This document shows positions 35,891 through 58,979 of a DNA stretch of 64,000 nt, in pieces (position 1 is the stretch's first letter; each line of letters opens with the position of its first letter). This DNA is from Tsukamurella conjunctivitidis (GTDB lineage Bacteria; Actinomycetota; Actinomycetes; Mycobacteriales; Mycobacteriaceae). Under the pieces are notes generated by a model. That model was not told where the DNA came from. It worked only from the letters and a program-made list of their open reading frames with translations, and did no database searches. The position numbers and the translations under genes are program-made. The DNA lies in assembly GCF_007858475.1 (NCBI RefSeq), contig NZ_VIGX01000004.1:1-64000 (forward strand). The letters run 5' to 3'.

Positions 35891-35934
35891 GTGCCCCCAG
35901 TCGGACTCGAACCGACACTCGGCGGATTTTAAGT
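35891..35934 (-). other. Attachment site 1, displaced tRNA 3' half
   Basis: This 44-bp segment reads on the minus strand as anticodon loop, variable loop, T arm and acceptor 3' strand of a tRNA. The T stem GTCGG/CCGAC is intact. It is the left boundary of element 1 and probably the original chromosomal 3' half, pushed away by integration. Confidence 0.85.
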
Positions 35935-36343
35935 ACTCCCGGTGTGCTGTTCTCCGAGATACGCCACCAGGCATGACGCCATTGTCGATCCCGCAGACTC
36001 GCAGGTGAGCGCCCATAACTGACCACCGTTTGACCACCAGCGGCTACCGCTGGCGCACCGCCAAGCTGGCGCCGGTGGGTAGCACGGGGGTGGCATGGCA
36101 CCGTCCGTTCAGCGATTCGCCTGGCTCCCCTGCGTGCGCTGGCCGCTGGTCGGACGGTGGGCGTACGGTGGCAGCAGCCAGCACGCCGCAACCGGGCAGT
36201 ACCCGCAGCGCCCGCGACCCGAGGTCGCAGCTGTCGCAGTTCAGGTTCACCGCGAACCGCGTAATTCTTCGCTTGGTCAGAGACCGGCGTCGTCGAGAAA
36301 GAGCCCCGACGAATCCAGTCCCTTCTACCGAACGGAGAAATCC
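35935..36343. other. Left end of element 1 with integrase arm-type repeats
   Basis: No gene is supported in this 409-bp stretch. At 36077 and 36088 lie GGGTAGC and GGGTGGC, 11 bp apart, within a 15-bp sequence (GGGTAGCACGGGGGT) repeated exactly at 48249 near the other end. These are good candidates for integrase arm sites. The last 20 bp contain the GGAG ribosome site of the capsid gene. Confidence 0.6.
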
Positions 36344-37519
36344 ATGAACGCCACCCTGACCCCGCCCGATCTCCGCGATCTTCGCGACGAACTGTTCGCC
36401 TTCGGCGGTGACGCAGCCACCGGCTATTCGACCGCGGGCGATGTGCTCGTGCACCAAACGGCCGACGGCGTCGATCTTTCGTCCCTCTGGTCCGACGCGC
36501 AGGCCGCGATGGCAATGTGGAATCAGAAGCGCTCCGCGCTGGCTTCGCTCATCTCGTACTCGACGGTGAACGTGGGCGACGCCATTCCGCAGAGTCTCGG
36601 CGGCGACCATTTCGAGGTCGCGTCGGAATTCGGCGAGCCGACCGGTCTCCGCGCAGAGCCGAACGCGCTTCTGCTCGGGTATGACTACGAGGACTACGAC
36701 ATCGCGTCGCGGTTCACCTGGAAGTTCTTGCGCGATGCGAACGCTGAGCAGGTCCGCAGCGTCGTCAACCGCGTGATGGAGGCCGACAATCGTCAGACGA
36801 CCGGCGCGATCCTCCGGCGGCTGTTCAGCCCCGAGCAGGGGGCCAACGAGTTCGGCACTCCGGTTTACGGCCTCTACAACGGCACCGACGGAATGATCCC
36901 GCCCGAGTACGCCGGTCAGGTGTTCCCACCCGAGACCAGTCACTACCTCGTGAGCGGGAACACCGATCTCGACCCCGGCGACCTGAAGGATGCAATCGAC
37001 CAGGTCCGCTCCAAGGGCTTCGGCGTCGACGGCAATTCTCGGCTGATCATCCTGGCGAACCCCGCGGACGGCGAGATCATCCAGACCTTCCGTGCAGGCA
37101 TCGCCACGAACGGCATCGAGAGCAAGTACGACTTCATCCCGTCGTCGTCCGCCCCGGCGTACCTCACCACCGAGAACGTCGTGGGCCAGATCGCCCCAGC
37201 AGAATTCGGAGGCCTGGAGGTCAGCGGCAGTTACGGCCCGGCATGGCTGATCGAGAGCCACTACCTGCCCGTCGGGTACGTCGCCGTTGTCGCGACCGGT
37301 GGACCGAATAGCTCGATGAACCCGGTCGCCTTCCGGCAGCACAATAACCCCAATTACCAAGGCCTGCGAATGATTCCGGGCCGGGACCAGAGGTACCCGC
37401 TGCAGGATTCGTTCTTCGCTCGCGGGTACGGGACGGGCGTCCGGTACCGGGGCGCGGCGTGCGTCGTCCAGGTCAAGTCGTCCGGTCCGTACTCCGAGCC
37501 CGAATGGTCGTGGCGCTGA
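36344..37519 (+). CDS. Putative major capsid protein, element 1
   Basis: This is a 391-residue protein resembling actinophage major capsid proteins. It has an N-terminal helical arm, a mixed alpha/beta core (SRFTWKFLRDANAEQVRSVV; ANPADGEIIQTFRAG) and a C-terminal segment with SFFARGYGTGVRYRGAACV. No protease site or scaffold is evident. The ATG at 36344 follows CGGAGAAA. It is the first gene of a three-gene run with overlapping stops. A capsid without other head genes fits a satellite that makes its own small head and borrows the rest. Confidence 0.7.
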   Translation: MNATLTPPDLRDLRDELFAFGGDAATGYSTAGDVLVHQTADGVDLSSLWSDAQAAMAMWNQKRSALASLISYSTVNVGDAIPQSLGGDHFEVASEFGEPTGLRAEPNALLLGYDYEDYDIASRFTWKFLRDANAEQVRSVVNRVMEADNRQTTGAILRRLFSPEQGANEFGTPVYGLYNGTDGMIPPEYAGQVFPPETSHYLVSGNTDLDPGDLKDAIDQVRSKGFGVDGNSRLIILANPADGEIIQTFRAGIATNGIESKYDFIPSSSAPAYLTTENVVGQIAPAEFGGLEVSGSYGPAWLIESHYLPVGYVAVVATGGPNSSMNPVAFRQHNNPNYQGLRMIPGRDQRYPLQDSFFARGYGTGVRYRGAACVVQVKSSGPYSEPEWSWR

Positions 37520-37779
37520 TGCACGCGTCGCGACCGAGGACGACCGGTAGGCCGCTCGCTGGCAGTCACGAACACGACCTGCCCGAGCTGGAGCCGAGCG
37601 AATTCAGCTGGGGGCCGGGCCTCACGCCGCCCGAGCTCGCGGACGCTCCGCCCTCGCAGGGTGGGATGTATCGCGGGACGACGCCACCCATGCCTGAGTC
37701 CGAGGACTTGCGCGCCCTCACTGACGAGCTGGCCGAACGGCGCGCACGCCGCGAGCGTCTGCAGGGCGGTCGGCAATGA
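37519..37779 (+). CDS. Small protein after capsid, unknown
   Basis: This is an 86-residue acidic protein I do not recognise. It is rich in Pro and Glu (HDLPELEPSEFSWGPGLTPP) and ends in a charged helix (LRALTDELAERRARRERLQ). The ATG at 37519 overlaps the capsid stop by one base, and its own stop overlaps the next gene by 4 bp, so expression is coupled. An accessory head protein is possible from position only. Confidence 0.55.
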   Translation: MHASRPRTTGRPLAGSHEHDLPELEPSEFSWGPGLTPPELADAPPSQGGMYRGTTPPMPESEDLRALTDELAERRARRERLQGGRQ

Positions 37780-38162
37780 GCCGCCGCGTCCAGCGCAGGG
37801 ACCGGCTGGGCCGGTTCGCTGGGGCGGGCTCGAAGGTCGTCAGCTCCACGAAGGCGGCGACGGCGAACGCGGGCAAGAAGGTGTCCAAGTCGGTGAGCAA
37901 CGCCTACGTCCAGGGCAGCTTTGAGAAGCACCTGACCGTCGGTCAGGGCGGCGACTACAAGGGCGTGAAGATCGGTGCTGAGTTCCGTTCGCCCGCCGGT
38001 CGTGGAGTGGTCGCGAAGGGCATCGTCGGTTACCACGGCCGTCCTGATCGCCGGCTCGACGTCACGCCCTCGCTGGACAAGGCGCAGAAGAAGCTGACGG
38101 TCACCGCGCGGCCGAACCCCGCGAGCCGTAAGGCCACGGCAGGGACGAAGGTGCGGCGATGA
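37776..38162 (+). CDS. Basic protein after capsid, unknown
   Basis: This is a 128-residue strongly basic protein (MSRRVQRRDRLGRFAGAG at the start, TARPNPASRK near the end). The middle is rich in Lys, Ser and Gly and predicts beta strands. It could bind DNA or serve as a minor head protein, but there is no family match. ATGA overlap with the gene before places it in the capsid run. Confidence 0.5.
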   Translation: MSRRVQRRDRLGRFAGAGSKVVSSTKAATANAGKKVSKSVSNAYVQGSFEKHLTVGQGGDYKGVKIGAEFRSPAGRGVVAKGIVGYHGRPDRRLDVTPSLDKAQKKLTVTARPNPASRKATAGTKVRR

Positions 38163-38531: not shown

Positions 38532-39035
38532 CTACTTGAACGACGCCGACTTGAAGAACTGCACCTCGCCGCCGAGCACGCCAGAGACCGCGCTGCACGC
38601 TGCCTGTTGCTTAGCTTGGACCAGTCCGTCGCACGAGACGAACCAGTTCGACCCCTGAACCAGGTATAGGGCCAGTGCGGCACTGTTAGTCGTGACCATA
38701 GACGTCTCCAGGTACAGCCGCTTCTGGAAGACGGAGGGGTCCGCCGAGTAGTAGATGGAGAGACTCTTCATCGCGTCGCCATCCACATTGCACCGCTGAG
38801 ACTGAGCGCCAGGGGCTGCAATCATGTCCTGAACGCAGTTGACGCCTCCTGCTTGCAGCGCGACCAAAATCGCCTGCGACCCGCTGAACGTCTGCGCGCT
38901 TACCTTGGCCGCCGTAGCAGTCGCCTCAGTCGTCGTCGACGTGCTGCCGGTCGTCGCCTTCTCGCCCCCGCCGCATCCTGTCAGGACCATCGATCCCACT
39001 GCCAAGCCGACCCCGGCCCGCTTCCATCCATGCAT
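38532..39035 (-). CDS. Element-encoded lipoprotein
   Basis: This is a 167-residue lipoprotein with signal peptide and lipobox LTGC (Cys near residue 21), then a Thr-rich linker (STSTTTEATATAA) and a globular domain with four cysteines. I do not recognise the domain. A lipoprotein on the repressor side of a prophage is often a superinfection-exclusion factor, as with Ltp-type proteins of other phages, but that is inference from position. It is divergent from the XRE gene. Confidence 0.7.
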   Translation of the reverse strand: MHGWKRAGVGLAVGSMVLTGCGGGEKATTGSTSTTTEATATAAKVSAQTFSGSQAILVALQAGGVNCVQDMIAAPGAQSQRCNVDGDAMKSLSIYYSADPSVFQKRLYLETSMVTTNSAALALYLVQGSNWFVSCDGLVQAKQQAACSAVSGVLGGEVQFFKSASFK

Positions 39036-39171
39036 CTGTGCCTCCTTCTAGACCAGGCAGATCATGCCCGACTTGCCGGACAATCCGGCTGGAATCGAAT
39101 ACTAAACCGTTTGGCCGTGGACCGATTGGCTCTGGTCCGTCTGGCCGCAACCCGCTGTAGTGGATGCCGCT
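39036..39171. promoter_or_regulatory. Divergent control region, lipoprotein/XRE
   Basis: GGACC and GGTCC (39119-39138 region) form an inverted pair flanked by TGGCCG and CTGGCC copies, giving a probable operator for the XRE protein at 39172. No hexamers are convincing enough to call as promoters. Confidence 0.35.
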
Positions 39172-39435
39172 ATGAGTCCAGCTGCCGAACCGACGCCGCC
39201 CACGCCCGCCGTGGTGGAGTTCGGCCGACGGTTGCGCGCTCGACGCGAGGAACTCGGACTCTCGCAGGAAGCCGCCGCCGCGAAGGCGGGGGTGCACTGG
39301 AGCTACTACGCCCGCGCCGAGCGCGGGCAGCGGAGTAGCCGCATCGACTCCATCCTCAAGCTCGCGCACGGCCTTGACACATCGCCGGGAGCGTTACTTG
39401 ACGGGCTTCCTCTCGAAACCAGGGAGCTACCGTAG
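39172..39435 (+). CDS. XRE-family regulator, element 1
   Basis: This is an 87-residue HTH protein. FGRRLRARREELGLSQEAAA followed by WSYYARAERGQRSSRIDSIL is a classic XRE/Cro helix-turn-helix. There is no second domain. It is probably the switch regulator of element 1, acting at the divergent gap with the lipoprotein gene. The ATG at 39172 is used; a GTG four codons upstream is possible. Confidence 0.85.
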   Translation: MSPAAEPTPPTPAVVEFGRRLRARREELGLSQEAAAAKAGVHWSYYARAERGQRSSRIDSILKLAHGLDTSPGALLDGLPLETRELP

Positions 39436-40306: not shown

Positions 40307-40585
40307 ATGAGTAAGGCGACCGCCACCCCTGCTCGTCCGACCGAGACGGTCGGCCCCATCACCCTGAACGAGATGCCGACGATCCGCGGACGCGACGGCG
40401 CGGTCGAGTTCATCAACGACGTGTTCAACGTCCCGGTGACGAAGACCCGCATGAGGTCCGCGATCGAGGGGCGCGAGCTCCCGGTGTTCAAGATCAGCGG
40501 CTGCAACTACTTCAGCGAGCGCGACCTGTACCTGTGGGTCAAGAGCCTGGCTCGCCCCGCCGTTCAGCGCGGGGGTGCCGCATGA
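40307..40585 (+). CDS. Excisionase-like HTH protein, element 1
   Basis: This is a 92-residue protein with a MerR-like/Xis winged helix: VFNVPVTKTRMRSAIEGREL reads as the recognition part and NYFSERDLYLWVKSLA as the wing and following helix. It would bend DNA at the attachment site and set integrase direction, or act as a regulator. The ATG at 40307 has GAGAGG upstream. It overlaps the next gene by 4 bp (ATGA). Confidence 0.65.
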   Translation: MSKATATPARPTETVGPITLNEMPTIRGRDGAVEFINDVFNVPVTKTRMRSAIEGRELPVFKISGCNYFSERDLYLWVKSLARPAVQRGGAA

Positions 40586-41394
40586 GCGGGCCGATCCCCG
40601 ATCCGGGCTGGAAGCCCGAGTTTGAGCAGTTCCCGGCGCTGTCCGACCGTGAGTACACCGACCCGTCATTGCGCGCGACCTCGAACTCCACGTGCGACCA
40701 GTACCTGACGGTCATGGAGCACAGCGAGAGCCCGCTGAGGGACAAGAGCCGTGACGTTCGGTACTCGCAGGGCGCTACGCGCTACCTCCGGTCGGTCGCG
40801 AGGGCGGTCGAGCGTGCCCGTGCTGGCGAGCTTCACTCCGAAGGGATGCCGTGGGGCTACCTCGAGACGAACTGCGGGCGGGAACGGATGCCGATGCACG
40901 GCGGATACGTACCGACCGAGGAGGAGAAGCGCAGGGTCACGCTTCGTAACGCCGCCGACCGCGGCGAGCGCGAAAAGGTAGTCCGCGACGCCGAGACCTA
41001 TCCCACTGCGGTCGCGGTCGCAGAGCACGGCGGTAGCCCGGTACCGACGGTGATTCTCGCGGGCGGTCACGAGGGCAACTATGAGTTCCTGGTCGTCCCC
41101 GGATACTGGACCGCCTACCGCCTCTGCCAGTACATCGCGAAGCACGTCACGGTCCGCGAGTGCGCGTTCTGTCGGGTGACGCGGTGCGGGTCGCGCGGAC
41201 TGGACGACTTCATGATCGTCGATTCGGGCGGGACGACCTACCTGTTGCCGAGCTGCCAGTCATGCCACTGGTCGGTCTACAGCGAGGCGCAGGCTATGGC
41301 CGACCAAGGCGTGCCAGTTCGCACGGACTGGATCGCCGGCCGATCCGACACCTGGCCCGCGTCCGTCGGTTGGCCTGATCAGGGGTTCTGGTGA
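40582..41394 (+). CDS. Element 1 protein with zinc-binding pairs, unknown
   Basis: This is a 270-residue protein with no recognised family. An N-terminal acidic segment precedes a basic helix (SVARAVERARAGE). Late cysteines (ECAFCRVTRC and SCQSCHW) could bind one zinc. It is co-translated with the excisionase-like gene before it and the small TM gene after it, upstream of the primase-helicase. A role in replication or its control is possible. Confidence 0.55.
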   Translation: MSGPIPDPGWKPEFEQFPALSDREYTDPSLRATSNSTCDQYLTVMEHSESPLRDKSRDVRYSQGATRYLRSVARAVERARAGELHSEGMPWGYLETNCGRERMPMHGGYVPTEEEKRRVTLRNAADRGEREKVVRDAETYPTAVAVAEHGGSPVPTVILAGGHEGNYEFLVVPGYWTAYRLCQYIAKHVTVRECAFCRVTRCGSRGLDDFMIVDSGGTTYLLPSCQSCHWSVYSEAQAMADQGVPVRTDWIAGRSDTWPASVGWPDQGFW

Positions 41395-41725: not shown

Positions 41726-44038
41726 TTGAAGCATACAAGCAACTCCGATCTGGACGGTATTCCGTTGCCGTCATACAGATGCGGCGACAACTCTGTCGGT
41801 CTCTACGAAGTGCTGCTCGTGCTCGGGCACGAGGACGACGCCGTGGTCAGCGTCTGCACCCAGGAGCCAGACCACACGACGCCCTTTCGAGGACGGACGA
41901 TGCGTGTCGAGCTCCTGGGACAAGGGTGGTCGCCGCCCGACGACGTCAACGTGTGGTTCTCGCCCAACCCGCTGACCCTGGAGCCTGGCATCTCACGCAA
42001 GGGTGGCGAGGCGGACGTCTCGCGGGGGCTCGCCCTGTACGTGGACCTGGACGTCGTAATCCCCGGCGTGAAGGACAAGGGGTTGGCGTCGCTGGCGGAG
42101 TGCGAGCAGGTGATCGAAAAGCTCGCCGCGGCGCTCGGCTGTGCGCCTGCCGTGGTGATCGAGAGCGGGCATGGCCTGCAACCGATATGGCGCGTCCGAG
42201 ATGCGCCGACCATCACCGACGGAGCGGTGGCCTGGAAGACGATCAGTGCGCGATGGGCAGCCCTGGTGCGGCAGGTCGCCGCAGAGATCAACCCCGACGG
42301 GCACGTGGACTCGGTGTTCAACATCGACCGCGTGCTCCGGTGCCCTGGGTCGACCAACTGGAAGGTCCCTGACGAGCCGGTGCCTGCGCGGTGCTCGGTG
42401 AATGCAGAGGCCGGGTGGCTCGAAGTCGCGGAACTCGGAGCCATCCTGCCGGAAGCGCCCGTAGCGTCTCCCGTCCATGCGAAGGGCACCCCTGCGGAGG
42501 GCTGCGCGGTACTCGACGGCTTCCGTAGCGGCGCGATGAGCGCGACGGTCGCCGCGAAGGTCCGCGAGGTGGAGGCCGCGATCGAGGACGGCGCTGACCG
42601 CCACTCAACCATGAACTCCGCGACGCTCGGCCTTGTCCGGCTCGGCGCGAAGGGCGAACCCGGCGTGCGCACCGCGCTGATCACCGTGGAAGCGCTATTC
42701 GAAGCGGTGGGTGACTCCCCAGGGCACGATTCCGGCGAGTTCCAACGGTCTCTGACCAGCGCGCTGCGCGTCGTCGCCGGCGATCCCGACTACGTCGCGT
42801 TGGACTTCTACAGCGGCGGTGCGTTCGAGCTAGACGGTATCTGGGGGCCGAGGTCGGGGTGGGTCGCCAACGAGGACGGCACCCGGTCCCGGGCTGTGTT
42901 GAAGCCGAACACCGACGGCTCGGCCGGGGATGCCGGTCGGCGCTTCACTGAGTCGCTGGCCGATGTGACGCCGAAGAAGGTGGACTGGCTGTGGTGGCCC
43001 TGGATTCCGCGCGGCAAGTTGACGATGTTCGAGGGCGAGCCGGACGTGGGCAAATCGACGATGACCCTCACGTGGGCGGCGCTGGTCACTCGCGGCGGTC
43101 CGTGGCCGACGACGATGGTCGGTGAGCGTGAAACCCGCAACGAGAAGGGGTTGAACGAACCGGCGTCGGTGGTGTTGGTCGGCGTGGAAGACGACCTGGC
43201 TGACACCGTCGTGCCGCGGTTGCTCGCCGCCGGTGCCGACATGCAGCGGGTGGCGACGCTCGCACGCCCGCGCGACGAAAACGGACGGCCCGTCCCCTTC
43301 CTGATCCCGGACGATGTTGACCGCTTGAAGAAGGCGATCGAAGAGGTCGATGCGGCGCTGGTCATTGTTGATCCGATCACCGCGTTCATGTCGGATGCCG
43401 TGAGGCCGGGAAGCGACACGGCAAACCGTAAGGCGCTGATGGAGATCGCCGATGTAGCCGAGCAGACCGGCACAGCGGTGGTGCTGGTGCGGCACCTGAA
43501 CAAGGCCACCGGCATGAGCGCTAAGCATCGTGGCGGGGGCTCCATCGCGTTTACGGCTCTGGCGCGGTCGTCGCTGTTGGCGGCGAAGCTCCCACCCAGC
43601 GACGAACGTCAGAACACGGATGCCACTCACGGGCTGGCGTCAATCAAGGGGAACTTGTCGCGGACACCCTCGGCCCTTGGGTATCGCCTGACATCCAGTC
43701 CTCACGACGCCGACTCGCCGGTCGTGGCATGGGCCGGGGTGCTCGACGAGGACGCCGATCAGCTGGTCGGTGCCGACGGCGCCAAGCCGGACGCACGTAA
43801 GGCGGCACCGTCAAGAGACGAGGCCGCACGAATGTTGAAGGAACTCCTCGCTGGTGGGCCGATGGACGCGAAGGAGGTTCGCCGGATGGTCAGCGCGGAG
43901 ACCGGATGCAGCGAGAAGACGGTGGCGAACGCCGCGAGCAAGCTACTGATCGTCAAGACGCCGATCCGTGGCGAAAGCGGCAAGGTCGACCGATGGACGT
44001 GGGGACTGCCGCCGAACACGTTCAAGGCACGGGGGTAG
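41726..44038 (+). CDS. Primase-helicase replication protein, element 1
   Basis: This 770-residue protein combines an archaeo-eukaryotic-type primase region (YVDLDVVIPG with two metal aspartates, ESGHGLQPIW, DRVLRCPGSTNWK) with a RecA-like RepA helicase (Walker A FEGEPDVGKSTMTL near residue 440, Walker B ALVIVDPITAF, and VLVRHLNKATG). The last 100 residues look like a winged helix. It should start replication of the excised element. The likely start is TTG at 41726, after GAAGG; an ATG at 41900 is a shorter alternative. Confidence 0.85.
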   Translation: MKHTSNSDLDGIPLPSYRCGDNSVGLYEVLLVLGHEDDAVVSVCTQEPDHTTPFRGRTMRVELLGQGWSPPDDVNVWFSPNPLTLEPGISRKGGEADVSRGLALYVDLDVVIPGVKDKGLASLAECEQVIEKLAAALGCAPAVVIESGHGLQPIWRVRDAPTITDGAVAWKTISARWAALVRQVAAEINPDGHVDSVFNIDRVLRCPGSTNWKVPDEPVPARCSVNAEAGWLEVAELGAILPEAPVASPVHAKGTPAEGCAVLDGFRSGAMSATVAAKVREVEAAIEDGADRHSTMNSATLGLVRLGAKGEPGVRTALITVEALFEAVGDSPGHDSGEFQRSLTSALRVVAGDPDYVALDFYSGGAFELDGIWGPRSGWVANEDGTRSRAVLKPNTDGSAGDAGRRFTESLADVTPKKVDWLWWPWIPRGKLTMFEGEPDVGKSTMTLTWAALVTRGGPWPTTMVGERETRNEKGLNEPASVVLVGVEDDLADTVVPRLLAAGADMQRVATLARPRDENGRPVPFLIPDDVDRLKKAIEEVDAALVIVDPITAFMSDAVRPGSDTANRKALMEIADVAEQTGTAVVLVRHLNKATGMSAKHRGGGSIAFTALARSSLLAAKLPPSDERQNTDATHGLASIKGNLSRTPSALGYRLTSSPHDADSPVVAWAGVLDEDADQLVGADGAKPDARKAAPSRDEAARMLKELLAGGPMDAKEVRRMVSAETGCSEKTVANAASKLLIVKTPIRGESGKVDRWTWGLPPNTFKARG

Positions 44039-45203: not shown

Positions 45204-45833
45204 ATGAGAGTCATCGGATACGTCAGGGTCAGTACGCAGAATCAAGGGGTCAGCGGTCTCGGTCTTGAAGCGCAGCGCGATTCACTCGCACAGTGGTGTG
45301 CGGCTCGCGGTCACGAACTACTCACGGTCACGACGGACGTGGTCAGCGGCGCGAAGAACGACGCGATGTTCGGCCGTGAGGTCGCCGTCGCCGCAGTGGA
45401 AAGCGGAGTGGCGCAAGGGCTACTCGTCCGCGCCCTGGACCGTGTCACCCGCGACCAGCTGGACGCCGCGAAGATCATGAAGCGAGCCAACGACTACGGA
45501 TGGCGACTCCTGGACTGCGAGGGCGCCGACAGCGGCGACCCGAGCCAGCGTCTCGTAGCGGATGTGCGCCTGGCTGTGGCCGCAGAGGAACGCCGCAAGA
45601 TCGGCACCCGTACCCGCGAAGCCCTGGACCAGAAGCGCAGCAAGGGCGACCCCGGCCTGATCAGCGTCTCGGCTCAGCGGCGCATCCAGGTGCTCGCCGC
45701 GCAGGGCCTCGGCGCTAAGGCCATCGCCAGCACGCTCACCAACGAGGGAATCCCCACCGCCAAGGGCGGCAGCGAATGGAGCTACAGCTCGGTCAGGCGA
45801 GCCCTGGCCCGCATCGAACGAAAGGCAGCCTGA
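45204..45833 (+). CDS. Small serine recombinase (resolvase type)
   Basis: This is a 209-residue serine recombinase. GYVRVSTQNQ carries the catalytic serine (residue 10), LLVRALDRVTRD the conserved Arg/Asp part, and RRKIGTRTREAL the E-helix. The C-terminal 55 residues form the resolvase HTH. Large serine integrases have 300 more residues, so this is not one. It precedes the tyrosine integrase by one base pair. Cointegrate resolution, DNA inversion, or a helper role in integration are all possible. Confidence 0.88.
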   Translation: MRVIGYVRVSTQNQGVSGLGLEAQRDSLAQWCAARGHELLTVTTDVVSGAKNDAMFGREVAVAAVESGVAQGLLVRALDRVTRDQLDAAKIMKRANDYGWRLLDCEGADSGDPSQRLVADVRLAVAAEERRKIGTRTREALDQKRSKGDPGLISVSAQRRIQVLAAQGLGAKAIASTLTNEGIPTAKGGSEWSYSSVRRALARIERKAA

Positions 45834-50290: not shown

Positions 50291-50836
50291 CTACCGGAAC
50301 CAGGTGGAGCCGTCGCCGTCGCCGTCGACGTCCACGCTGTGGCCGCGCTCGGTGACGGGGAACGCGGTCTCGCGCGGGATCGAGGCGAGGACCTGTTCCA
50401 TGCCCGGATCGTGCTCGATGAGGGTGCGCCAGTGGCCGGCGCGGGCGCGGGTGATCTTCCCGGCCTTGATCGCGTCGTTGACGACCTGTTCGCGACGCTG
50501 GGCGGCTGCTGCGGCCTTGATCTGCGCGCCTTCGGCGGCCGCGGCTCGCAGTGCGGTCGCCGTGTCGGTGTCCATCACCTCGAGGCCGGCGCGGCCTGCT
50601 GCTGCAGCGATCGCCGACGGTGCGCCGTCGGCGGCCGCCTCCTTGTCGACGAGGCCCTGCACGGCGGCGAGCACGTCGTCGGCGGTGACGGTGGCGTCGA
50701 GGCCGAGGGCGTCGAGCAGGGTCGCCCAGACGGTGGGGTCGATGTCGGGCGGGTCGACAGGTTCCAGCTCGACGGCCTCGTCCTTGGGGGTGTCGGCGGC
50801 CGCGTTGGTGCGGCCGCGGGTGCGGGGCTTGGGCAT
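50291..50836 (-). CDS. Putative scaffold-like protein, element 2
   Basis: This is a 181-residue acidic protein. The segment VVNDAIKAGKITRARAGHWR followed by a helix resembles the scaffold domain at the C-terminus of Mu-type protease-scaffold fusions. It ends in an Asp/Gly-rich tail (VDVDGDGDGS). It lies directly after the capsid gene, while the protease is encoded separately upstream. A scaffolding role is inferred from both. The ATG at 50836 is used. Confidence 0.55.
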   Translation of the reverse strand: MPKPRTRGRTNAAADTPKDEAVELEPVDPPDIDPTVWATLLDALGLDATVTADDVLAAVQGLVDKEAAADGAPSAIAAAAGRAGLEVMDTDTATALRAAAAEGAQIKAAAAAQRREQVVNDAIKAGKITRARAGHWRTLIEHDPGMEQVLASIPRETAFPVTERGHSVDVDGDGDGSTWFR

Positions 50837-50847: not shown

Positions 50848-51735
50848 TTACTGGCAGCCGGTGATGCGCCGGGCGGCGCGCGGGTGGTTGGGCACGTACG
50901 CGGGCACGCAGAAGGTCTGCACGGTGACGGTGCGGTTCTTCTCGTTGGGGATGACCCGGGTGGTGAGGGGCTGCTCGAAGGCGACGACGCCGCATTCGCC
51001 GGCCTGCACGACCAGGGCGGTGCCGGCGGTGGCGCGCGGGTTCGACACCATCGTGAGGCCGAGGCTGTCGAGCATGGCCTGCAGGTTCTCGCCGTATAGC
51101 GCGCGCAGGTTGAACGCCTCGTCGGGGTGGCAGATGAGGGTGTCGCCGACGACGCCGAGCTCGTCGAGCTCGAAGGCGCGCAGGGCGGCGCCGATCGCGG
51201 CGGACGGCCGAGACAGGGCCGGGGACGGGCTGGCTCCGTCGAGCGTGACCGTGTCCCACCCGGCCGGCGCGAGGAGGTTCAGCGCGGGGTCCATCTCGTC
51301 GTCGAGGGCGGCGAAGGCGCGGCGGTCGAGCTTCATCGTGATGCTGTTGGCGAGCTGGATCGTCGCGAGGTCGAGCTTGGCGAGGTCGTTGCGCCGGATG
51401 TCCTCCTCGGTGAGGGTGATCGTCGCGCCGTAGTCCTCGACCTGGCTCAGTCGCGGCTCGGGCAGCACGGGCTGCAGTTCGCTGTACTCGGAGCCCGGCG
51501 AGCGGGGGCCGACGTCGCCGGCGGCGAGCAGCTCGTCCTTGGACTGGATGGAGGCCCAGAGGACGCCGCCGCCTTCGACGGGCTGGCCGAGCGTGTGGTA
51601 GAGGTGCTGGGCGATGAGCTGGTGGTCGGCGAGCTTGGCGACCTGCTCGGTGATGCGCATCGGGTTCTTGAGGAACGCGTCGACGGTGACGTTGCGGCCG
51701 TTGAGGGTCGGCAGCAGCATGGGTGCGCTGGGCAT
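50848..51735 (-). CDS. Putative major capsid protein, element 2
   Basis: This is a 295-residue capsid-like protein. It has a helical N-terminus, a mixed central domain (NSITMKLDRRAFAALDDEMD), and a late segment with VVQAGECGVVAFEQPLTTRV. It lies between a decoration-type gene and a scaffold-like gene, with a protease upstream, which is the order of head genes in phages. It is clearly different from the capsid protein of element 1. Confidence 0.7.
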   Translation of the reverse strand: MPSAPMLLPTLNGRNVTVDAFLKNPMRITEQVAKLADHQLIAQHLYHTLGQPVEGGGVLWASIQSKDELLAAGDVGPRSPGSEYSELQPVLPEPRLSQVEDYGATITLTEEDIRRNDLAKLDLATIQLANSITMKLDRRAFAALDDEMDPALNLLAPAGWDTVTLDGASPSPALSRPSAAIGAALRAFELDELGVVGDTLICHPDEAFNLRALYGENLQAMLDSLGLTMVSNPRATAGTALVVQAGECGVVAFEQPLTTRVIPNEKNRTVTVQTFCVPAYVPNHPRAARRITGCQ

Positions 51736-51746: not shown

Positions 51747-52124
51747 TTACTTGAGCTTGACGTGGACGGAGCCGTCGGCGGCGCCGCTGGTGACGGCGTA
51801 GCCGATCGGCGGGTTGGCGCCGGCCGGGGCGACCTTGCCGTCCGCGGTGGCGGCGACGAGGGTGCCGGCAGTGACCGGGGCGGACGCGGTGAGGCGGACG
51901 ATGCCGGCGGTGGCGATCGCGACCTGCGAGCCGGTCGGGCAGTCGTTCCACGCGACGCCGAGGACGGCGGGCGCTGCGGCGGCGGCGTGCTGGCCGGTGA
52001 GGTTGCCCTCGGCGCTGGTGGAGCCGACGGCGACCAGGCGACCGGCGAGGATCGGCGCGGTGGCGGTGACGGTGACGTCCGCGCCGACCACGTAGGCGCG
52101 GGGGCTGTACTGGGTGATACCCAT
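51747..52124 (-). CDS. Decoration-type capsid protein (DUF2190-like)
   Basis: This is a 125-residue, nearly all-beta protein (PILAGRLVAVGSTSAEG; GIVRLTASAPVTAGTLVAA) with many Ala, Gly, Thr and Val. The repeating strand pattern resembles DUF2190/lambda gpD-like capsid decoration proteins. It precedes the capsid gene by 11 bp. The ATG at 52124 follows GGAG. Confidence 0.65.
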   Translation of the reverse strand: MGITQYSPRAYVVGADVTVTATAPILAGRLVAVGSTSAEGNLTGQHAAAAAPAVLGVAWNDCPTGSQVAIATAGIVRLTASAPVTAGTLVAATADGKVAPAGANPPIGYAVTSGAADGSVHVKLK

Positions 52125-52143: not shown

Positions 52144-52860
52144 TTAGTTGCTGTTTCGTGCTCGACGGACGCGGCGGGCACGCGCGGCCGCGAGGAGCGG
52201 CGAACGGTCGGTGGTGACGGCGCTGTGGCCGCGGGACGATGCGGCGACGAAGTCCCTGAGCTCCTTGAGGTTGCCGATCGCGGGCTCGGTGGCGCCGAGG
52301 AGCGCAAGGCCGGTCAGGACGAGCGGCCAGACGGTGCCGTCGGCGTCCTCGTAGCCGAACACCGCCTCGAGGGAACGGTTCGGGAAGTGCGAGGGCGCGG
52401 CGTCGGCGACCCACCGCGGTACGCCGGCGAGGTCGCCGACGAGGACCCGGCCGCCTTCGCTGACGCGCAGGCTCTCGATCCAGCCGATCGACGGTTCGCC
52501 GTCGAATCTCGGGTCGTGGTGGCCGACCTTGAGTACCGGCTTCGGCGTGATGCCGGCGTTGAAGGCTGCGACGGCGTCGGCGAAGTCCTCGGGCGTGAAC
52601 GTGACCCCGCCGGCCTCGTCGCGTCGATCGCCGTCCCCGCCGCCGGGGAAGAACCGCCCGACGCGGGCGATCTCGACGCCGGGGATGCGGACCCGCTTAG
52701 GCGGCGCGGCGTTCTGCTCGTCGGACGACGTCGGCAGCGGCGAAGAGCCACCGTCCGCCGACTCGGTAGCCCGTGAGGGTGCCTCGACGACCGAGCTGCC
52801 GAACGCCAGCGGCGCCGATACCGAGGATCGCCGCGGCTTCGGCAGTGGTGAGGAGGTCAT
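52144..52860 (-). CDS. Putative Mu-type prohead protease
   Basis: This is up to 238 residues. After residue 57 it resembles the Mu gpI-type prohead protease: a start near RVRIPGVEIARVG, GGVTFTPEDFADAVAAFN, PVLKVGHHDP and SIGWIESLRV. The His and Ser residues needed for catalysis are plausible but not certain. The ATG at 52860 gives a 164-bp overlap with the HTH gene in another frame; no ATG/GTG start is found nearer the protease core. The start therefore needs checking. Confidence 0.6.
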   Translation of the reverse strand: MTSSPLPKPRRSSVSAPLAFGSSVVEAPSRATESADGGSSPLPTSSDEQNAAPPKRVRIPGVEIARVGRFFPGGGDGDRRDEAGGVTFTPEDFADAVAAFNAGITPKPVLKVGHHDPRFDGEPSIGWIESLRVSEGGRVLVGDLAGVPRWVADAAPSHFPNRSLEAVFGYEDADGTVWPLVLTGLALLGATEPAIGNLKELRDFVAASSRGHSAVTTDRSPLLAAARARRVRRARNSN

Positions 52861-53231: not shown

Positions 53232-53512
53232 CGGTCGGTCTCCTCGGGTCGGCCGCGGTCCGCGGCGGGGTAGGTCGTCGCGAGCTGCTCGCGCAGGGTG
53301 TCGATGCCGGCGTTGTGGACCAGCGGTGTGCCGGCGCCGAGCACGTGCAGCGCTTCGACGAGTGCGGGCACCGCCTCGATGAACGTCAGATCGGGGTGCT
53401 CGCTGAAGATCTCGGCGAGCACGTCGCCCTCTCCGGCGCCCGGCTGGAACGCGGCGAGGGTGAACGCGGTCAGCAGGTGGCCGAGTCGGACGTCGACGGG
53501 GCGGTCGGTCAT
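53228..53512 (-). CDS. Small acidic protein, element 2
   Basis: This is a 94-residue acidic, helical protein (LGHLLTAFTLAAFQPGAGEG; LTFIEAVPALVEALHVLG) of unknown family. It overlaps its neighbours by 4 bp at both ends, as in the nuo operon style, within the WhiB to HTH run. Confidence 0.5.
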   Translation of the reverse strand: MTDRPVDVRLGHLLTAFTLAAFQPGAGEGDVLAEIFSEHPDLTFIEAVPALVEALHVLGAGTPLVHNAGIDTLREQLATTYPAADRGRPEETDR

Positions 53513-53817
53513 GCGGATGCCTTTCGGGGGCGCCCCGGGGCTCCGAGGCGGGGACGCTGGCCGGCGATCACGCCGCCGGGGCGTTGCGACTTGGTCAGGG
53601 TGTCCGCCCACCGCTCGCACTCGGCGAGCACGGGACACGCCCACCTGCAGAGCCGCACGGCTGCCTCGTGCCGGCGCGCGGCGGCGGTGGACGGCTCGTG
53701 CTCGGCGGGCGGGTCGAACAGTTCGGCGCTGTCGCGGCATGCGGCACCGGGTAGCGCCGGGGTGCCGGCGAGCGCCGCCGTCAGCAGCCGGACGGTGCCC
53801 TCGTGGTCGAAGCTCAT
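53509..53817 (-). CDS. WhiB-like protein, element 2
   Basis: This is a 102-residue WhiB-like protein, an iron-sulfur transcription factor type found only in actinobacteria and their phages. ACRDSAELFDPPAE supplies the first Cys, and LCRWACPVLAEC the next three. The usual spacing is C-x2-C-x5-C, but here it is C-x3-C-x5-C. GGVIAGQRPR replaces the usual GxWGG turn, and a basic tail follows. It may bind the host sigma factor. Cluster binding is uncertain because of the changed spacing. Confidence 0.78.
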   Translation of the reverse strand: MSFDHEGTVRLLTAALAGTPALPGAACRDSAELFDPPAEHEPSTAAARRHEAAVRLCRWACPVLAECERWADTLTKSQRPGGVIAGQRPRLGAPGRPRKASA

Positions 53818-54914
53818 GCCGGCTCCTTCGGTGTCGGTGGTGTCGGGCGTCGTTTCGGGGGCAGGAGCTTGTCGACCAGCTCGACGAAGGGCGCACCGGT
53901 GGGGCGGCCGGCCGACCACCACGCGCCGTCGAACTCGCCGACGACGAACCGGACGAACGTGTCGTTGTTCTGCTTGCGCCGCGACCTGGTGAACTGGTCG
54001 AGCAGGTGGTCCAGGTCTGCGTCCGTCAGGTACGAGAGCGCGCGCTCGGCGGGCTCGAAGCCGCCGATGAGGGCCGACCACGCGGCCGTCTGCTCGGGCG
54101 TGAGGCGGTCAGGATTCAGCTGCAGCCGGACCCCGCCGTTCGGATCGTCGAAGCGGCGGTGCGGCGGAAGGTCGGGCCGACCGTTCGGCACCGCGGCCAC
54201 ATCCGCCGGCCGGGACGAACCGCGACCCGCTGGGATGTGGTTCGCCGGATCGACCGCCTGCAGATGCCGACCGTGCGGTTCTTCGGTTTGCGAATCTTTT
54301 CGCCGCCGCTCGCCTCGCGTGCCCGCGTTGCTTACGTAAGACGAAGGATCTGATGGAAGCTGATCTGATGGTAGGAAGTGGGCTTCCGGTTGATAACGCG
54401 GATTTGCCGGTTGATAGCCACTGACGCCGGGTCTGGGATCGTCTACGACCGGCACTGCGCTTCCGGTTGAACGCGGTTTGACTCCGTCCGCACTGGGATC
54501 GTGTTCAACCGGCACCGTGATTCCGGTTGAACGAGATTCGACCGGCAACGTGCTTCCGGTCGAAGTCGGTCGGTGTGCTTCTACCGGAGCTGGGCGGCTA
54601 TCGACAGGCAGTGTGCTGCCGGTTGATAGCTGTCCGAGTGCATAAGTGGAGGCCCACCGCCTACCGTCGCGTGATCGGCCACCGCGAGAGGTTCGGATGA
54701 GGATCCCGCGGGCGACGAGGTCGCCGAGCGCCTGGCGCGCACCGCGGTCTGAGATGCCGGCAACATCGGATAGCGCCTCAGCGCTGAGCCGAGCGTTGCG
54801 GCCGGATGCGTCGGTGCGGCCGAACGCTTCGATGAGCGCGCACCACTGGGAGGCGGTCAGTCCGAGGCGGGGTGCGTCCTTGAGCCACTGCAGCTTCGAG
54901 AATGGCTCCGTCAC
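53814..54914 (-). CDS. Replication initiator-like protein with internal origin repeats
   Basis: This is a 366-residue protein. Residues 1-85 form a winged helix (LTASQWCALIEAFGRTD; ISDRGARQALGDLVARGILI). Residues 100-165 repeat STGSTLPVE-like blocks four times because the DNA carries CCGGTTGA repeats. The C-terminal domain is helical (LTPEQTAAWSALIGGFEPAE). A DNA-binding N-terminus, repeats inside the gene and a partner-binding C-terminus recall phage lambda O. The GTG at 54914 overlaps the wHTH gene by 4 bp. Confidence 0.6.
   Translation of the reverse strand: MTEPFSKLQWLKDAPRLGLTASQWCALIEAFGRTDASGRNARLSAEALSDVAGISDRGARQALGDLVARGILIRTSRGGRSRDGRRWASTYALGQLSTGSTLPVDSRPAPVEAHRPTSTGSTLPVESRSTGITVPVEHDPSADGVKPRSTGSAVPVVDDPRPGVSGYQPANPRYQPEAHFLPSDQLPSDPSSYVSNAGTRGERRRKDSQTEEPHGRHLQAVDPANHIPAGRGSSRPADVAAVPNGRPDLPPHRRFDDPNGGVRLQLNPDRLTPEQTAAWSALIGGFEPAERALSYLTDADLDHLLDQFTRSRRKQNNDTFVRFVVGEFDGAWWSAGRPTGAPFVELVDKLLPPKRRPTPPTPKEPA
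54386..54626. repeat. Iteron cluster inside initiator gene, putative origin
   Basis: CCGGTTGA occurs at 54386, 54407, 54463, 54523 and 54619, with a variant CCGGTCGA at 54556. One unit is a perfect dyad: GTTCAACCGG (54503-54512) and CCGGTTGAAC (54523-54532). The set spans 241 bp within the initiator gene and is the best origin candidate in element 2. Confidence 0.65.
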
Positions 54915-55195
54915 AGCGCCTCCCCGGCGTAGGCCATCCAGTAGGCGAGGCCGTCGCGTTGGAGTAGTCCGCGTTCGGTCAGGGTCCGCAGGGCGCGACT
55001 GGCGCGGGCCGCGCTGATCGGGATCTCGCTTCCCAGTCGTGGGCCGGTCAGCTCGACGCCGTCGTTCGTCTCGCCCACGCGGTTGAACACGGCGACGATG
55101 ACGCAGAACTCGGATGCGTTGAGCCCGCGGACGCTCACGACGACGCGGAGCCACTTCTCGCGCGGCTGCAGGGGTGGTGCGCCGGGTGCGCTCAC
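54911..55195 (-). CDS. Small winged-helix protein, element 2
   Basis: This is a 94-residue protein. ARASRALRTLTERGLLQRDG is a winged-helix recognition region, preceded by a helix pair (SEFCVIVAVFNRVGE). It is similar in outline to the N-terminus of the initiator protein encoded next, and may be its partner or paralogue. The GTG at 55195 is used. Confidence 0.6.
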   Translation of the reverse strand: MSAPGAPPLQPREKWLRVVVSVRGLNASEFCVIVAVFNRVGETNDGVELTGPRLGSEIPISAARASRALRTLTERGLLQRDGLAYWMAYAGEAL

Positions 55196-56544: not shown

Positions 56545-56759
56545 TTGTCCCCCTGTGGGGTACGGGTGAGCGCAGCGGGGTAGGACTCGACGAGACGTGC
56601 GCGGGCCTCGACCAGCGCGTCGAGGTCCTCCAGGTCGAGCAGCAGCATCGTCGGCCGCTCCGGATCGGTGCCGGCGATCGGCACGTACACGACCGGCTCA
56701 CGCGGATCGACCTCGACGGGGCCCACCACGGTGCCGTCGAGCGCGTTGAGCGCGCTCAC
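56541..56759 (-). CDS. Small acidic protein, element 2
   Basis: This is a 72-residue acidic protein (VVYVPIAGTDPERPTMLLLD; LEDLDALVEARARLVESYP) of unknown family. GTG start at 56759, overlapping the excisionase-like gene by 4 bp. Its fold may be a small beta-alpha unit. Confidence 0.45.
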   Translation of the reverse strand: MSALNALDGTVVGPVEVDPREPVVYVPIAGTDPERPTMLLLDLEDLDALVEARARLVESYPAALTRTPQGDK

Positions 56760-56959
56760 GCCGCGCCGGCTTCGAGTCGCGCGACGTACTCGGTGATCTG
56801 CCGGTCAGTGGAGAACCGGCGCTTGCCGATCTTCACCGAGCCGAGCTGGCCGGACTTCCAGAGCGCGAAGACGGTCGAGCGGCTGACCTTGAGCCGGGCG
56901 CTCACGTCGGCATGGTCATTCATGATCGCCACAGCGGGCGGGAGAGTTGAGTGGGTCAC
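56756..56959 (-). CDS. Excisionase-like HTH protein, element 2
   Basis: This is a 67-residue protein. VSARLKVSRSTVFALWKSGQ, then VKIGKRRFSTDRQITEYVAR, is the usual excisionase HTH. The GTG at 56959 follows AGGAGGTAGCT. It is the first gene of the long minus-strand operon and divergent from the XRE repressor. Excision control is the likely role, possibly with control of the operon. Confidence 0.78.
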   Translation of the reverse strand: MTHSTLPPAVAIMNDHADVSARLKVSRSTVFALWKSGQLGSVKIGKRRFSTDRQITEYVARLEAGAA

Positions 56960-57003: not shown

Positions 57004-57072
57004 CTTGCGCAAGATTAACGCGTCCATTGAAGTTTGCGCAAGAGGCCGGTAATTTGCGTTGATATGACGCAA
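57004..57072. promoter_or_regulatory. Three-part operator at the element 2 switch
   Basis: CTTGCGCAAG (57004-57013) is a perfect palindrome. TTTGCGCAAG (57033-57042) is a near copy 29 bp away. TTGCGT-N7-ACGCAA (57054-57072) overlaps the XRE start codon at 57064. This resembles a phage immunity operator with three sites. Confidence 0.75.
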
Positions 57073-57714
57073 CAGGAATGCCCGCCGGGCTGCACGGAGG
57101 ATCACATTCACACCGTCGGACTGCCGAAGCTCGACCGTCCGTGGTCGGAGGAGGTGAACCGGCGGATCGCACGAGGGATCGCGAAGATCCGTGGCGACAG
57201 GTCCGCGCAATGGCTCTCGGACTCGACAGCCGAGATCGGCCACAGGGTCAGTCGGGAGACGATCTCCAACTACGAGAACGGCCGGAAGAAGGTCCTCGAC
57301 GTCGCCGATCTCCTCGTGATAGCTCAGGCGCTGGATGTTGGGCTGATCGACCTGTTGTTGCCGGACCCCGGCGACTCGGACGTATGGGAGTCGCCGGTGC
57401 ACCAGGCGAGTGCGACCGAGGCGGCGCGGAACCTGCAGCGGACGAACCTGCACTGGCCGGCGTTCCGGCTGCAGTCGATGATCGACGGATTCGTGCAGGC
57501 CTCCCGGGCTGCTGACGATCACACTCTCCCGGCCGATGAGAGACGGCGCGCGGCCGCGACCGCGGTCACGTTCGGCGAGAGCGCGCTCGAGCGGTACGAC
57601 CGGATGAACCCGAAGGTGTGGCCGCAGGTTCTTGTTGACCGCGAATTCACGAAATCCGATCTTGCATACGAGCTTTCGATAATGCGTGCGTGGGCGGAGT
57701 TCGAAGATGAGTAG
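57064..57714 (+). CDS. XRE-family repressor, element 2
   Basis: This is a 216-residue repressor. Residues about 35-95 carry an XRE HTH (RVSRETISNYENGRKKVLDV, with DLLVIAQALDVG). The C-terminal part is helical and unassigned, with no LexA-type peptidase signature. The ATG at 57064 lies inside an operator dyad, so the transcript may be leaderless and self-repressed. It overlaps the integrase gene by 8 bp, tying integrase expression to the repressor. Confidence 0.8.
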   Translation: MTQQECPPGCTEDHIHTVGLPKLDRPWSEEVNRRIARGIAKIRGDRSAQWLSDSTAEIGHRVSRETISNYENGRKKVLDVADLLVIAQALDVGLIDLLLPDPGDSDVWESPVHQASATEAARNLQRTNLHWPAFRLQSMIDGFVQASRAADDHTLPADERRRAAATAVTFGESALERYDRMNPKVWPQVLVDREFTKSDLAYELSIMRAWAEFEDE

Positions 57715-58861
57715 GCAGCGGCTCCCGCGGGGCATCACCAAGACGACGGTGACGAACCGGCGCACGGGCAGGCCGGAGGATCGGTGGCGCGTGAAGCTCA
57801 ATCCCGTGGACGCGGCCGGGGCGCGCCACCAGGTGAACCGGTCGTTCGCCACGGAGAAGGAAGCTCGCGCATTCCACGCTGAGACGCTGGGCGCGGTCCA
57901 GAACGGCGCGTACGTGGCGGCGTCGAAGCGCACCGTCGAGCAGGCCTGCGCCGATTGGCTGACGTCGAAGCATCGGATCAAGGCGAGCACGGCTCGCGGG
58001 TACCGGGTGAGCCTGCAGCCGGTCCGCGATGAGCTGGGCAGTAGGCCGGTGCAGCGGCTCGAAAAGGCCGACGTCGATGGCCTCGTGCAACGGCTCCGGG
58101 CCGGCGAGGTGGAGGGCCGCCGGCAGTACACGCCGCGGTCGGTGAATCAGATGCTCGGGCTGCTGATGCAGGTGCTCGCGAGCGAGCAGGCGCAGGGCAA
58201 GGTCGTGCGCAACGTCGCTCAGCTCGTCGACCGCGTGCCGGCGGACCCGAAGAAGTACCGCACCCTGACGGAGAAGGAGATCTTGCGCGTCATCGACCAC
58301 GGCAGCCGAGACCGCGCCCTGTGGGCGCTCGCCCTGTACGGGCTGCGGCGCGGCGAGATCGCGGGCCTGCGTTGGGAGCACGTCGACCTCAAGGCCGGCA
58401 CCGTCGCGATCGTCGAGAACCGGGTCGCGGTCGGCAAGGAGTCGATCGTCGGCACGCCGAAGTCGAAGGCGTCCCGGCGCACGCTTCCGCTACCGGACGA
58501 CGCGCTGGCCGCGCTCAAGGCGGCACGGAAGCAGCAGCAGCGCGAACGACTGGCGCTCGGCGAGGCGTACGGCCCGGGGGAGTACGTCGCGTGCGACGAG
58601 GCCGGCCAGCCGCTGACGCCGGCCACGCTCACGTTCAGGTGGGGCCGGATGCTCGACGGGCTCAAGATCGAGCGCGTACGGCTCCACGACGCGCGGCACT
58701 CCTGCGCCACGTTGATGCACCTGCGGGGCGTCCCTATCGCGGTGATCGCGGCGTGGCTGGGTCACAGCTCGGCAGCCTTTACCATGGCGACCTACGCGCA
58801 CAGCCAGGACGAGGCGCTGAAGGCGGCCGGACAGAGTTTCCGACCAGTTGAGGCAATCTGA
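57707..58861 (+). CDS. Tyrosine integrase, element 2
   Basis: This is a 384-residue phage integrase with an N-terminal arm-binding domain, a core-binding domain (VEQACADWLTSKHRIKASTA) and a catalytic domain. Key residues lie in ALYGLRRGEIAGL (Arg), LHDARHSCATLM (HxxR) and AWLGHSSAAFTMATYAH with nucleophile Tyr 363. The ATG at 57707 is used. Arm-type TGAGGCA repeats overlap its final codons, and the tRNA gene starts 45 bp beyond its stop. Confidence 0.94.
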   Translation: MSRQRLPRGITKTTVTNRRTGRPEDRWRVKLNPVDAAGARHQVNRSFATEKEARAFHAETLGAVQNGAYVAASKRTVEQACADWLTSKHRIKASTARGYRVSLQPVRDELGSRPVQRLEKADVDGLVQRLRAGEVEGRRQYTPRSVNQMLGLLMQVLASEQAQGKVVRNVAQLVDRVPADPKKYRTLTEKEILRVIDHGSRDRALWALALYGLRRGEIAGLRWEHVDLKAGTVAIVENRVAVGKESIVGTPKSKASRRTLPLPDDALAALKAARKQQQRERLALGEAYGPGEYVACDEAGQPLTPATLTFRWGRMLDGLKIERVRLHDARHSCATLMHLRGVPIAVIAAWLGHSSAAFTMATYAHSQDEALKAAGQSFRPVEAI

Positions 58862-58865
58862 GGCA
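58849..58865. other. Right-end arm-type repeats, element 2
   Basis: TGAGGCA at 58849 and 58859 (10 bp apart) matches the pair at 48476 and 48487 on the same strand. One copy lies in the last codons of the integrase gene. These are likely integrase arm sites next to the tRNA core. Confidence 0.55.
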
Positions 58866-58905
58866 CGGAGCCCAAGAGGTGTATTGAGCAACATGGTCTG
58901 ACCAG

Positions 58906-58979
58906 TGCCCCCACAGGGATTCGAACCCTGACTTTGCGGATTTTAAGTCCGCTGCCTCTGCCAATTGGGCTATGGGGGC
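58906..58979 (-). tRNA. tRNA with UAA anticodon (Leu), hybrid gene
   Basis: This 74-nt tRNA on the minus strand has a 7-bp acceptor stem GCCCCCA/TGGGGGC, discriminator A, anticodon stem GCGGA/TCCGC with loop CTTAAAA (anticodon UAA), and T arm CAGGG-TTCGAAT-CCCTG. The variable loop is only 5 nt, while leucine tRNAs normally have a long one. The 3' half differs from attachment sites 1 and 2 but keeps all pairs, so it came with element 2. CCA is not encoded. Confidence 0.9.

Follow-up and report, generated by a model that had tools for sequence, protein, structure and literature searches.

Two capsid-encoding elements, probable phage satellites of different families, stacked in one tRNA-Leu gene of Tsukamurella conjunctivitidis

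Candidate phage-inducible chromosomal islands (PICIs) of actinobacteria have been defined as single phage-like regions uniting an integration gene with a major capsid gene, and those of Mycobacterium, phiRv1 and phiRv2 included, carry an integrase and a major capsid protein (MCP), lie in tRNA sites in the tyrosine-integrase examples and in some cases add helicase, terminase or scaffold genes (PMC10654092). Stricter PICI features are phage-dependent induction, an attachment (att) site unused by the temperate prophages of the species and specific packaging in phage-like particles (PMC6092414). SaPIbov5 (with Ccm) and PmCI172 are satellites whose capsid-protein homologue is associated with small heads, and some PICIs carry a small terminase (PMC6092414, PMC12409344). 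Capsid-forming PICIs (cf-PICIs) encode their own MCP, protease, portal, connectors and both terminases (PMC10690885, PMC12409344), and the Streptomyces satellites MulchRoom and MiniFlayer have terminases and a portal and lack key replication genes (PMC10690885). Tandem PICIs at fis, delimited by three att sites, and tandem P4-like elements have been described in other bacteria (PMC10111431, PMC8628076). Here we analyze a 64,000-nucleotide stretch of Tsukamurella conjunctivitidis (the window), in which two elements, E1 and E2, adjoin a tRNA-Leu(TAA) gene. As read from sequence, E1 and E2 are very likely independent integrative phage satellites of different families, stacked in this gene by integrase recombination in the anticodon loop.

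The window is G000:C289:1-64000, the start of one contig in a 5.07-Mb, 343-contig assembly (G000 is the source genome itself). Allowing up to 3 mismatches, a 44-bp pattern of the tRNA 3′ half occurs in the whole window only at 35891, 48327 and 58905, and three such matches were found in 0 of 100 shuffles of the window. The initial annotation had thus been right in placing three tRNA 3′-half copies here, although they are not identical to one another. They bound E1 (12.4 kb) and E2 (10.6 kb), about 23 kb in all. The tRNA-Leu(TAA) gene, 75 nt as called by ARAGORN (58905..58979, − strand), appears to owe its 3′ half to E2 and has the T-stem CAGGG/CCCTG, whereas both distal copies have GTCGG/CCGAC. 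The outermost copy (35891..35934, −) is most simply the displaced native end of the tRNA-Leu gene, because 46 bp (35889-35934) are 100% identical to the tRNA 3′ half of G002, a same-genus genome in which the site is empty. The internal copy (48327..48370, −) would be the 3′ half brought by E1.

The comparison set for the genus comprised one genome per species. In G003, which belongs to another species, E1 stands alone and is joined directly to the same tRNA-Leu gene, which is completed by the copy that is internal in the window; the far end of E1 there bears the same outer copy. E1 aligns between the window and G003 over 12,486 bp with no gaps and 3 mismatches, 2 of them internal; the third is the fourth base from the alignment end, where E2 follows in the window and the tRNA follows in G003. 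The flanking chromosome is only 88.0–90.8% identical between the two genomes. That E1 occurs alone, and is nearly identical against flanks of 88–91%, indicates that the 23 kb consists of two units and that E1 has moved recently between species, to judge by these alignments. At the empty site in G002, 2 bp separate the last position of the left-flank match (L109:11218) from the first of the tRNA (11221). A third genome, G014, retains a 1.9-kb remnant of an E1-like element at the same tRNA. The initial annotation's proposal that two distinct satellite-like elements share a single attachment site is therefore well supported by the G003 locus, its suggestion of looking for an empty site was answered by G002, and no related locus showed the 23 kb as a single unit lacking an internal junction.

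The tRNA-Leu(TAA) gene was present in all 15 fetched same-genus loci. The core pattern was found in 12 of them, with T-stem GTCGG/CCGAC in 10 and CAGGG/CCCTG in 2 (G015 and G006). Since the tRNA in the window has CAGGG/CCCTG, E2 integration probably swapped the T-arm while keeping the stem paired. Beside the G015 tRNA-Leu (L107), which has the E2-type T-stem, no E2 gene match was found, and this gene is possibly a former integration site. Rhodococcus phage REQ2 has an integrase 47.7% identical to that of E2 and, directly behind the integrase gene, the same tRNA-Leu 3′ half. The same core bounds prophiGD02-2, a 60.5-kb prophage of M. abscessus whose integrase is 24.5% identical to that of E2 and has no match to that of E1 at E 1e-3. 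Taken together, REQ2, prophiGD02-2 and the window indicate that one anticodon loop is used by unrelated integrases. REQ2 and prophiGD02-2 come from other genera, Rhodococcus and Mycobacterium. A separate peculiarity is that tRNA-Leu(TAA) (58905-58979) and tRNA-Leu(CAA) (L002) are both just 75 nt; a long variable arm is usual in tRNA-Leu.

Each element carries its own capsid gene. The MCP of E1 (MCP1, 391 aa; 36344..37519, +) matched phrog_3990 at 1.5e-105 and is 44.6% identical to the MCP of Gordonia phage LilyPad; profile A2 matched the solved capsids 8saj (1.3e-113) and 8giu (1.1e-109). Immediately 3′ lies a 91-aa capsid partner (37504..37779, +) with the motif SEFSWGPG..APPSQGG.YR, followed by a 128-aa protein adjoining the capsid gene (37776..38162, +). 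Further along, E1 encodes a primase-polymerase/AAA helicase for replication (41810..44038, +; PF13481 1.7e-30, phrog_2478 6e-32) and a small-terminase-like protein (44244..44966, +; phrog_10899 6.9e-4, phrog_2538 1.8e-3). For the latter, the top 2 of 4 matches of profile A4 were the solved small terminases 7joq (0.0016) and 6w7t (0.0078), and its predicted structural model was poor (pLDDT 56.6, pTM 0.26). The E1 tyrosine integrase occupies 45835..47313 (+; PF00589 2.7e-6, phrog_1 9.7e-49), and in the final part of its gene 27 bp (47254..47280, +) exactly reproduce the 5′ half of the target tRNA. Related integrases have a different sequence at that point, and a 36-bp pattern with the 27-bp copy (up to 3 mismatches) occurred in only G000 and G003 among 16 genomes of the genus.

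E2 instead carries what looks like a complete shell kit. Its MCP (MCP2, 295 aa; 50848..51735, −) belongs to another family (phrog_1650 4.1e-44, PF25209 2.7e-13) and is 31% identical to the MCP of phage Schnabeltier. Beside it are a head-maturation protease domain (52144..52860, −; phrog_3894 1e-45, profile positions 4-156), which has the motifs GHxDPRFDG and RS in common with Schnabeltier gp4; a cement/decoration or scaffold-type protein (51747..52124, −; scaffolding family phrog_673 5.9e-17, decoration family phrog_122 7.5e-8), which matches Schnabeltier gene 5; and a scaffold-like domain (50291..50836, −) corresponding to the C-terminal part of a phage protease-scaffold (phrog_2976 1.1e-22, profile positions 228-378), which matches the 3′ part of Schnabeltier gene 4. 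The order in E2 is thus protease domain, then cement and capsid, then the scaffold-like part. In Schnabeltier, the cement and capsid genes come after gene 4, which comprises both the protease match (3182-3637 of the locus) and the scaffold match (4121-4546), and prophiGD05-3 gene 49 likewise holds both matches in one gene; in the other phage regions compared, one part matched or none did. By these matches, E2 has the two parts of the phage protease-scaffold gene on either side of its capsid gene. The remaining core genes are a tyrosine integrase (57707..58861, +; PF00589 1.5e-22, phrog_1 3.2e-65, 48% identical to that of REQ2) and a replication-initiator-like open reading frame (ORF) with an uncertain start (53814..55154, −; phrog_26991, a family of unknown function, 1.4e-5; replication initiation O-like 0.003).

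To take inventory of the missing phage functions, all 32 genes called in E1 and E2, plus the 91-aa ORF, were scanned one by one against PHROGs. None of these proteins matched a family of portals, large terminases, tail or lysis proteins, nor was a head-tail connector found, and no protease match was found in E1 with either PHROGs or phage query proteins. PF03354 detected no large terminase (TerL) anywhere in the source genome, yet one on contig C65 was found by tblastn and PHROGs; a single Pfam model is therefore insufficient, and several kinds of search were combined for E1 and E2. The gene content described in the initial annotation largely survived this scrutiny. An integrase of its own was found in each element, as were an XRE-type repressor (E1, 39160..39435, +, phrog_5823 3.3e-11; E2, 57064..57714, +, HTH_3 2.1e-5) and an unrelated capsid gene, and the absence of portal, large terminase, tail and lysis genes was upheld, including in the search for remote portal or terminase homology that it had recommended, which gave no portal or large terminase with PHROGs profiles. 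Its excisionase-like genes fared less well: that of E2 (56756..56959, −) matched weakly (phrog_7735 9.5e-4), and the E1 counterpart (40307..40585, +) matched a family of unknown function at 0.051 (phrog_27219), so that calling this small protein an excisionase is a guess from size and position. It had also overlooked the small-terminase-like gene of E1 and the protease domain, cement gene, scaffold domain and WhiB-like gene of E2.

We next turned to relatives of E1. The E1 capsid query matched 14 of 151 genomes, the source genome included, and 9 loci in named genomes, Mycobacterium and Rhodococcus among them. Across both families, 7 of 9 tested loci of relatives had a second att copy. The E1-type units so bounded measure about 12.2–13.4 kb and sit in different tRNA genes: tRNA-Leu(CAA) in L081 (~12.2 kb), tRNA-Arg in L080 (13.4 kb), tRNA-Met in L082 (12.8 kb, with an imperfect copy) and tRNA-Lys in L088 (12.9 kb). 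TerL, portal, tail, tape measure, protease and scaffold queries from LilyPad, Send513, Schnabeltier and Rem711 (E ≤1e-4) matched 0 of 25 MCP1 records outside phage contigs (24 distinct loci, window included), and the same queries gave at least one match in all 27 tested phage contigs. These 27 were drawn from 78 (L143-L220), mostly as the best-ranked and not at random. Among the 25 records, L132 repeats L080, L141 and L142 are viral-collection contigs, L141 was called a satellite from part of its contig, L138 and L140 are short on one side, and in L080-L091 only about 3-4 kb was covered on the flank of the capsid gene opposite the E1 integrase.

In the MCP1 tree a single branch splits 20 satellite from 22 phage proteins (support 92/94); the split was present in 90% of 200 bootstrap trees, and 0 of 500 shuffles scored as low. 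This tree leaves out L090, L091, L132, L138 and L140 from the 25 records and L149, L152, L153, L159, L160, L163 and L177 from the 27 contigs, and adds LilyPad and Send513. In both the MCP1 and the MCP2 tree the proteins were labelled by that same gene-content test; what the trees examine is therefore whether the labels cluster, not whether they are correct. MCP1 had a ratio of nonsynonymous to synonymous substitution rates (dN/dS) of 0.096-0.244 over 6 pairs, which indicates that capsid proteins of the E1 lineage are under purifying selection, as far as such ratios tell; the 128-aa neighbor, 93-95% identical in L080 and in a third element of the source genome, gave 0.04-0.21 (6 pairs). The partner motif was found 3′ of MCP1 in the window, L080/L132, L082, L084 and the Mycobacterium loci L133, L137 and L139. 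It had no match in the other MCP1 loci scanned, in 36 phage contigs (L143-L178) or in the parts of LilyPad and Send513 that were read. In several members of the E1 lineage, then, the capsid gene appears by sequence to travel with a satellite-only partner and a small-terminase-like protein. The small-terminase and primase genes of L080 are split into pieces.

The E2 capsid query matched 16 of 151 genomes, again including the source genome; two of the matches, L099 and L124, resemble prophages and have a tail gene close by. The split order, with both protease and scaffold parts, was seen in 4 of 12 E2 loci (L092, L093, L094 and L098 among L092-L103). In L096, L097 and L099-L103 the two parts were not both found, and in L097 and L101 the cement match lies on the other side of the capsid gene. 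Att-bounded units of E2 type span 9.4-10.2 kb, in tRNA-Arg (L093, 10.2 kb) and tRNA-Ser (L096, 9.4 kb; L098, 10.1 kb), and 10 L093 proteins from outside its capsid kit matched no packaging or tail family. In the MCP2 tree, 11 satellite and 9 phage proteins lie on opposite sides of one branch (91/91; 88% of 200 bootstrap trees); this tree has several long branches, and satellites L098 and L101 fall on the phage side of the drawn root. For MCP2 of L092-L093, dN/dS was 0.24. Stacking appears to recur: in a related genome, at ~95.9-114.5 kb of G096:C2 (L234-L235), an E2-type element is present twice in tandem. The two units, offset by 9,257 bp, align over 9,298 bp with 1 mismatch, and of the three 41-bp att copies there the last lies in a tRNA-Thr gene. 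This near-identical tandem may be an assembly artefact.

Several observations weigh against reading E1 and E2 as satellites. Sequence profiles can overlook a divergent portal or terminase, and a 270-aa protein of E1 and a 220-aa protein of E2 are without assignment; in the pooled scans of 74 proteins, the results cover the best 25 of 112 PHROG families and the best 25 of 36 Pfam families. Two of the nine tested loci, L085 (with a 14-bp match only) and L091, had no second att copy. Phages Dori and ThulaThula, with integrases 48-49% like that of E2, had no tRNA-Leu core in the regions fetched, and the exact pattern of att plus the E1 left end had no match in viral contigs. Comparison of E2 genes between the window and relatives gave dN/dS of 0.51-1.00, which we take, unproven, as saturation at high GC and hence as uninformative. 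The capsid-based mechanisms proposed below for E1 and E2 are, moreover, analogies.

Could both elements instead be remnants of ordinary prophages whose portal, terminase and tail genes have decayed away? Decay does occur in this setting, as the 1.9-kb E1-like remnant in G014 and the broken small-terminase and primase genes of L080 attest. However, an E1 common to two species with 2 internal single-nucleotide differences, relatives alike in size with att copies in several tRNAs, and low MCP1 dN/dS speak against it, and satellite MCPs on one side of a branch would be unexpected from repeated independent decay, so that we regard this account as quite improbable. A single composite 23-kb element, its internal att copy a relic, would fit the common site and the same orientation of the att copies in E1 and E2, yet E1 alone in G003, integrases only ~25% identical between the two and E2-type relatives alone in other tRNAs make it extremely unlikely. 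Both accounts were set aside on the G003 locus, the att-bounded relatives, the trees and dN/dS. We also considered that the capsid genes serve not for packaging but as decoys that poison incoming phages, the elements being defence islands that spread in some other way. A lone MCP, with neither portal nor scaffold of its own, could act as a dominant negative, and the DUF4062 protein of E1 matches a defence candidate, PDC-S60. Against this, the parts for protease, cement, capsid and scaffold are retained in E2 in the same order as in four relatives, E1 keeps a small-terminase-like gene, and no conjugation family was found among the Pfam and PHROG matches of E1 and E2 proteins; a decoy role is thus unlikely.

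We therefore favor two independent satellites, given att-bounded units, E1 alone at the same tRNA elsewhere, and both families in other tRNAs at similar size. Each probably depends on a helper phage, which we infer because portal, large terminase and tail genes were not found in either. Upon infection by or induction of a helper, an element would excise by means of integrase and excisionase, replicate with its own initiator (in E1, the primase-helicase) and then be packaged with the portal, large terminase and tail of the helper; helper lysis genes would be needed by both. The capsid protein of E1 likely enters the assembly of helper heads, like Ccm of SaPIbov5, and E1 likely steers packaging by its own small terminase. 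E2 likely forms a shell of its own around the portal of a helper, using its protease, scaffold, cement and capsid. A possible helper is contig C65 of the same genome, which has TerL, portal, protease, capsid (phrog_10), major tail, tape measure and minor tail genes, and whose capsid belongs to neither satellite family. The position of E2 nearest the tRNA suggests that it arrived second; since E1 inserting at the distal copy of E2 would yield the same three copies, either order of arrival is compatible with the locus. Stacked pairs may excise or travel together.

Both elements fall within the candidate actinobacterial PICI definition, and in the scans above neither had the portal, large terminase and tail genes of a complete temperate phage. 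They resemble the Mycobacterium candidates in having integrase, MCP and a tRNA site, and MCP1 has relatives in Mycobacterium genomes; they differ in genus, in the stacking of two unrelated families and in the split protease-scaffold of E2. Here phiRv1 and phiRv2 were set beside E1 and E2 by description. By description, too, E1 resembles SaPIbov5 and PmCI172 in its capsid homologue, although the hosts differ. E2 is like cf-PICIs in having its own MCP, maturation protease and HNH gene, whereas E1 has no protease match; unlike cf-PICIs, neither yielded a portal, connector or large terminase, and only E1 has a small-terminase-like gene. By analogy with these accounts, E2 is intermediate between PICIs with a capsid homologue (SaPIbov5, PmCI172) and cf-PICIs. 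Like MulchRoom and MiniFlayer, E1 and E2 are actinobacterial satellites with capsid genes, and E1 is their reverse, with replication genes and no portal or large terminase found. Like the tandem PICIs at fis, they are two satellites in tandem with three att sites, though those tandems are in other bacteria and the present one joins two unrelated capsid-carrying families. Integrase-plus-capsid candidates in Mycobacterium and tandem satellites in other bacteria are thus already known from the literature consulted. In a search on actinobacterial and tandem satellites and on Tsukamurella, with subscription journals mostly outside it, no title on the E1-E2 pair was among the matches listed.

More tentatively, and with less than even confidence, we propose a gradation of capsid autonomy, in which E1-type satellites supply capsid, partner and small terminase and E2-type satellites a whole shell kit on a helper portal, with protease and scaffold unfused and reordered. 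If true, this would give chimaeric virions and a class between size-switching PICIs and cf-PICIs. The data suggest that the satellites with capsid genes in Tsukamurella, Mycobacterium and Rhodococcus are not decayed prophages but constitute separate lineages. The locus also offers a natural experiment, one satellite with and without a neighbor at one site and nearly unchanged between species, and a testable case of a shell made without its own portal or terminase.

The other features of the two elements are as follows. GC is ~0.64-0.68 in E1 windows and ~0.67-0.73 in E2 windows, and mostly 0.69-0.74 to the left. A search of a plasmid collection gave no match. A third, E1-like satellite with a different integrase lies in the same contig (L079/L121, G000:C289 ~121-131 kb), its capsid and replication modules oppositely oriented, and no direct repeat of at least 16 bp was found between the flanks searched. 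An orphan tRNA 3′ half lies near a broken E1-like integrase remnant (L123, G000:C278:301355-301398), and no tRNA gene was found in the 3-kb locus around it (L003). Within E1, a 167-aa protein with a lipoprotein-like start and weak database matches (38532..39035, −) is possibly cargo, an uncalled ORF in the gap at 39.4-40.3 kb (39489-40037, −) weakly matched an HNH endonuclease (phrog_1271 1.9e-4), and the 270-aa protein (40582..41394, +; no PHROG match) is 44% identical in L080 and 55% in L082. The DUF4062 protein (47310..48257, −; PF13271 6.2e-5, just under the cut-off; PADLOC PDC-S60 7.4e-18) is candidate defence cargo. E2 encodes an HNH endonuclease (49178..50068, −; PF13392 8.9e-7, phrog_1492 9.8e-26) and a WhiB-like regulator (53509..53817, −; phrog_9926 1.8e-5). 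Lastly, a small serine recombinase of E1 (209 aa; 45204..45833, +; PF00239 2.1e-27) is 31% identical to that of the third element and 95-98% identical in L080, L081 and L082, where it stands beside tyrosine integrases that are 40-68% identical.

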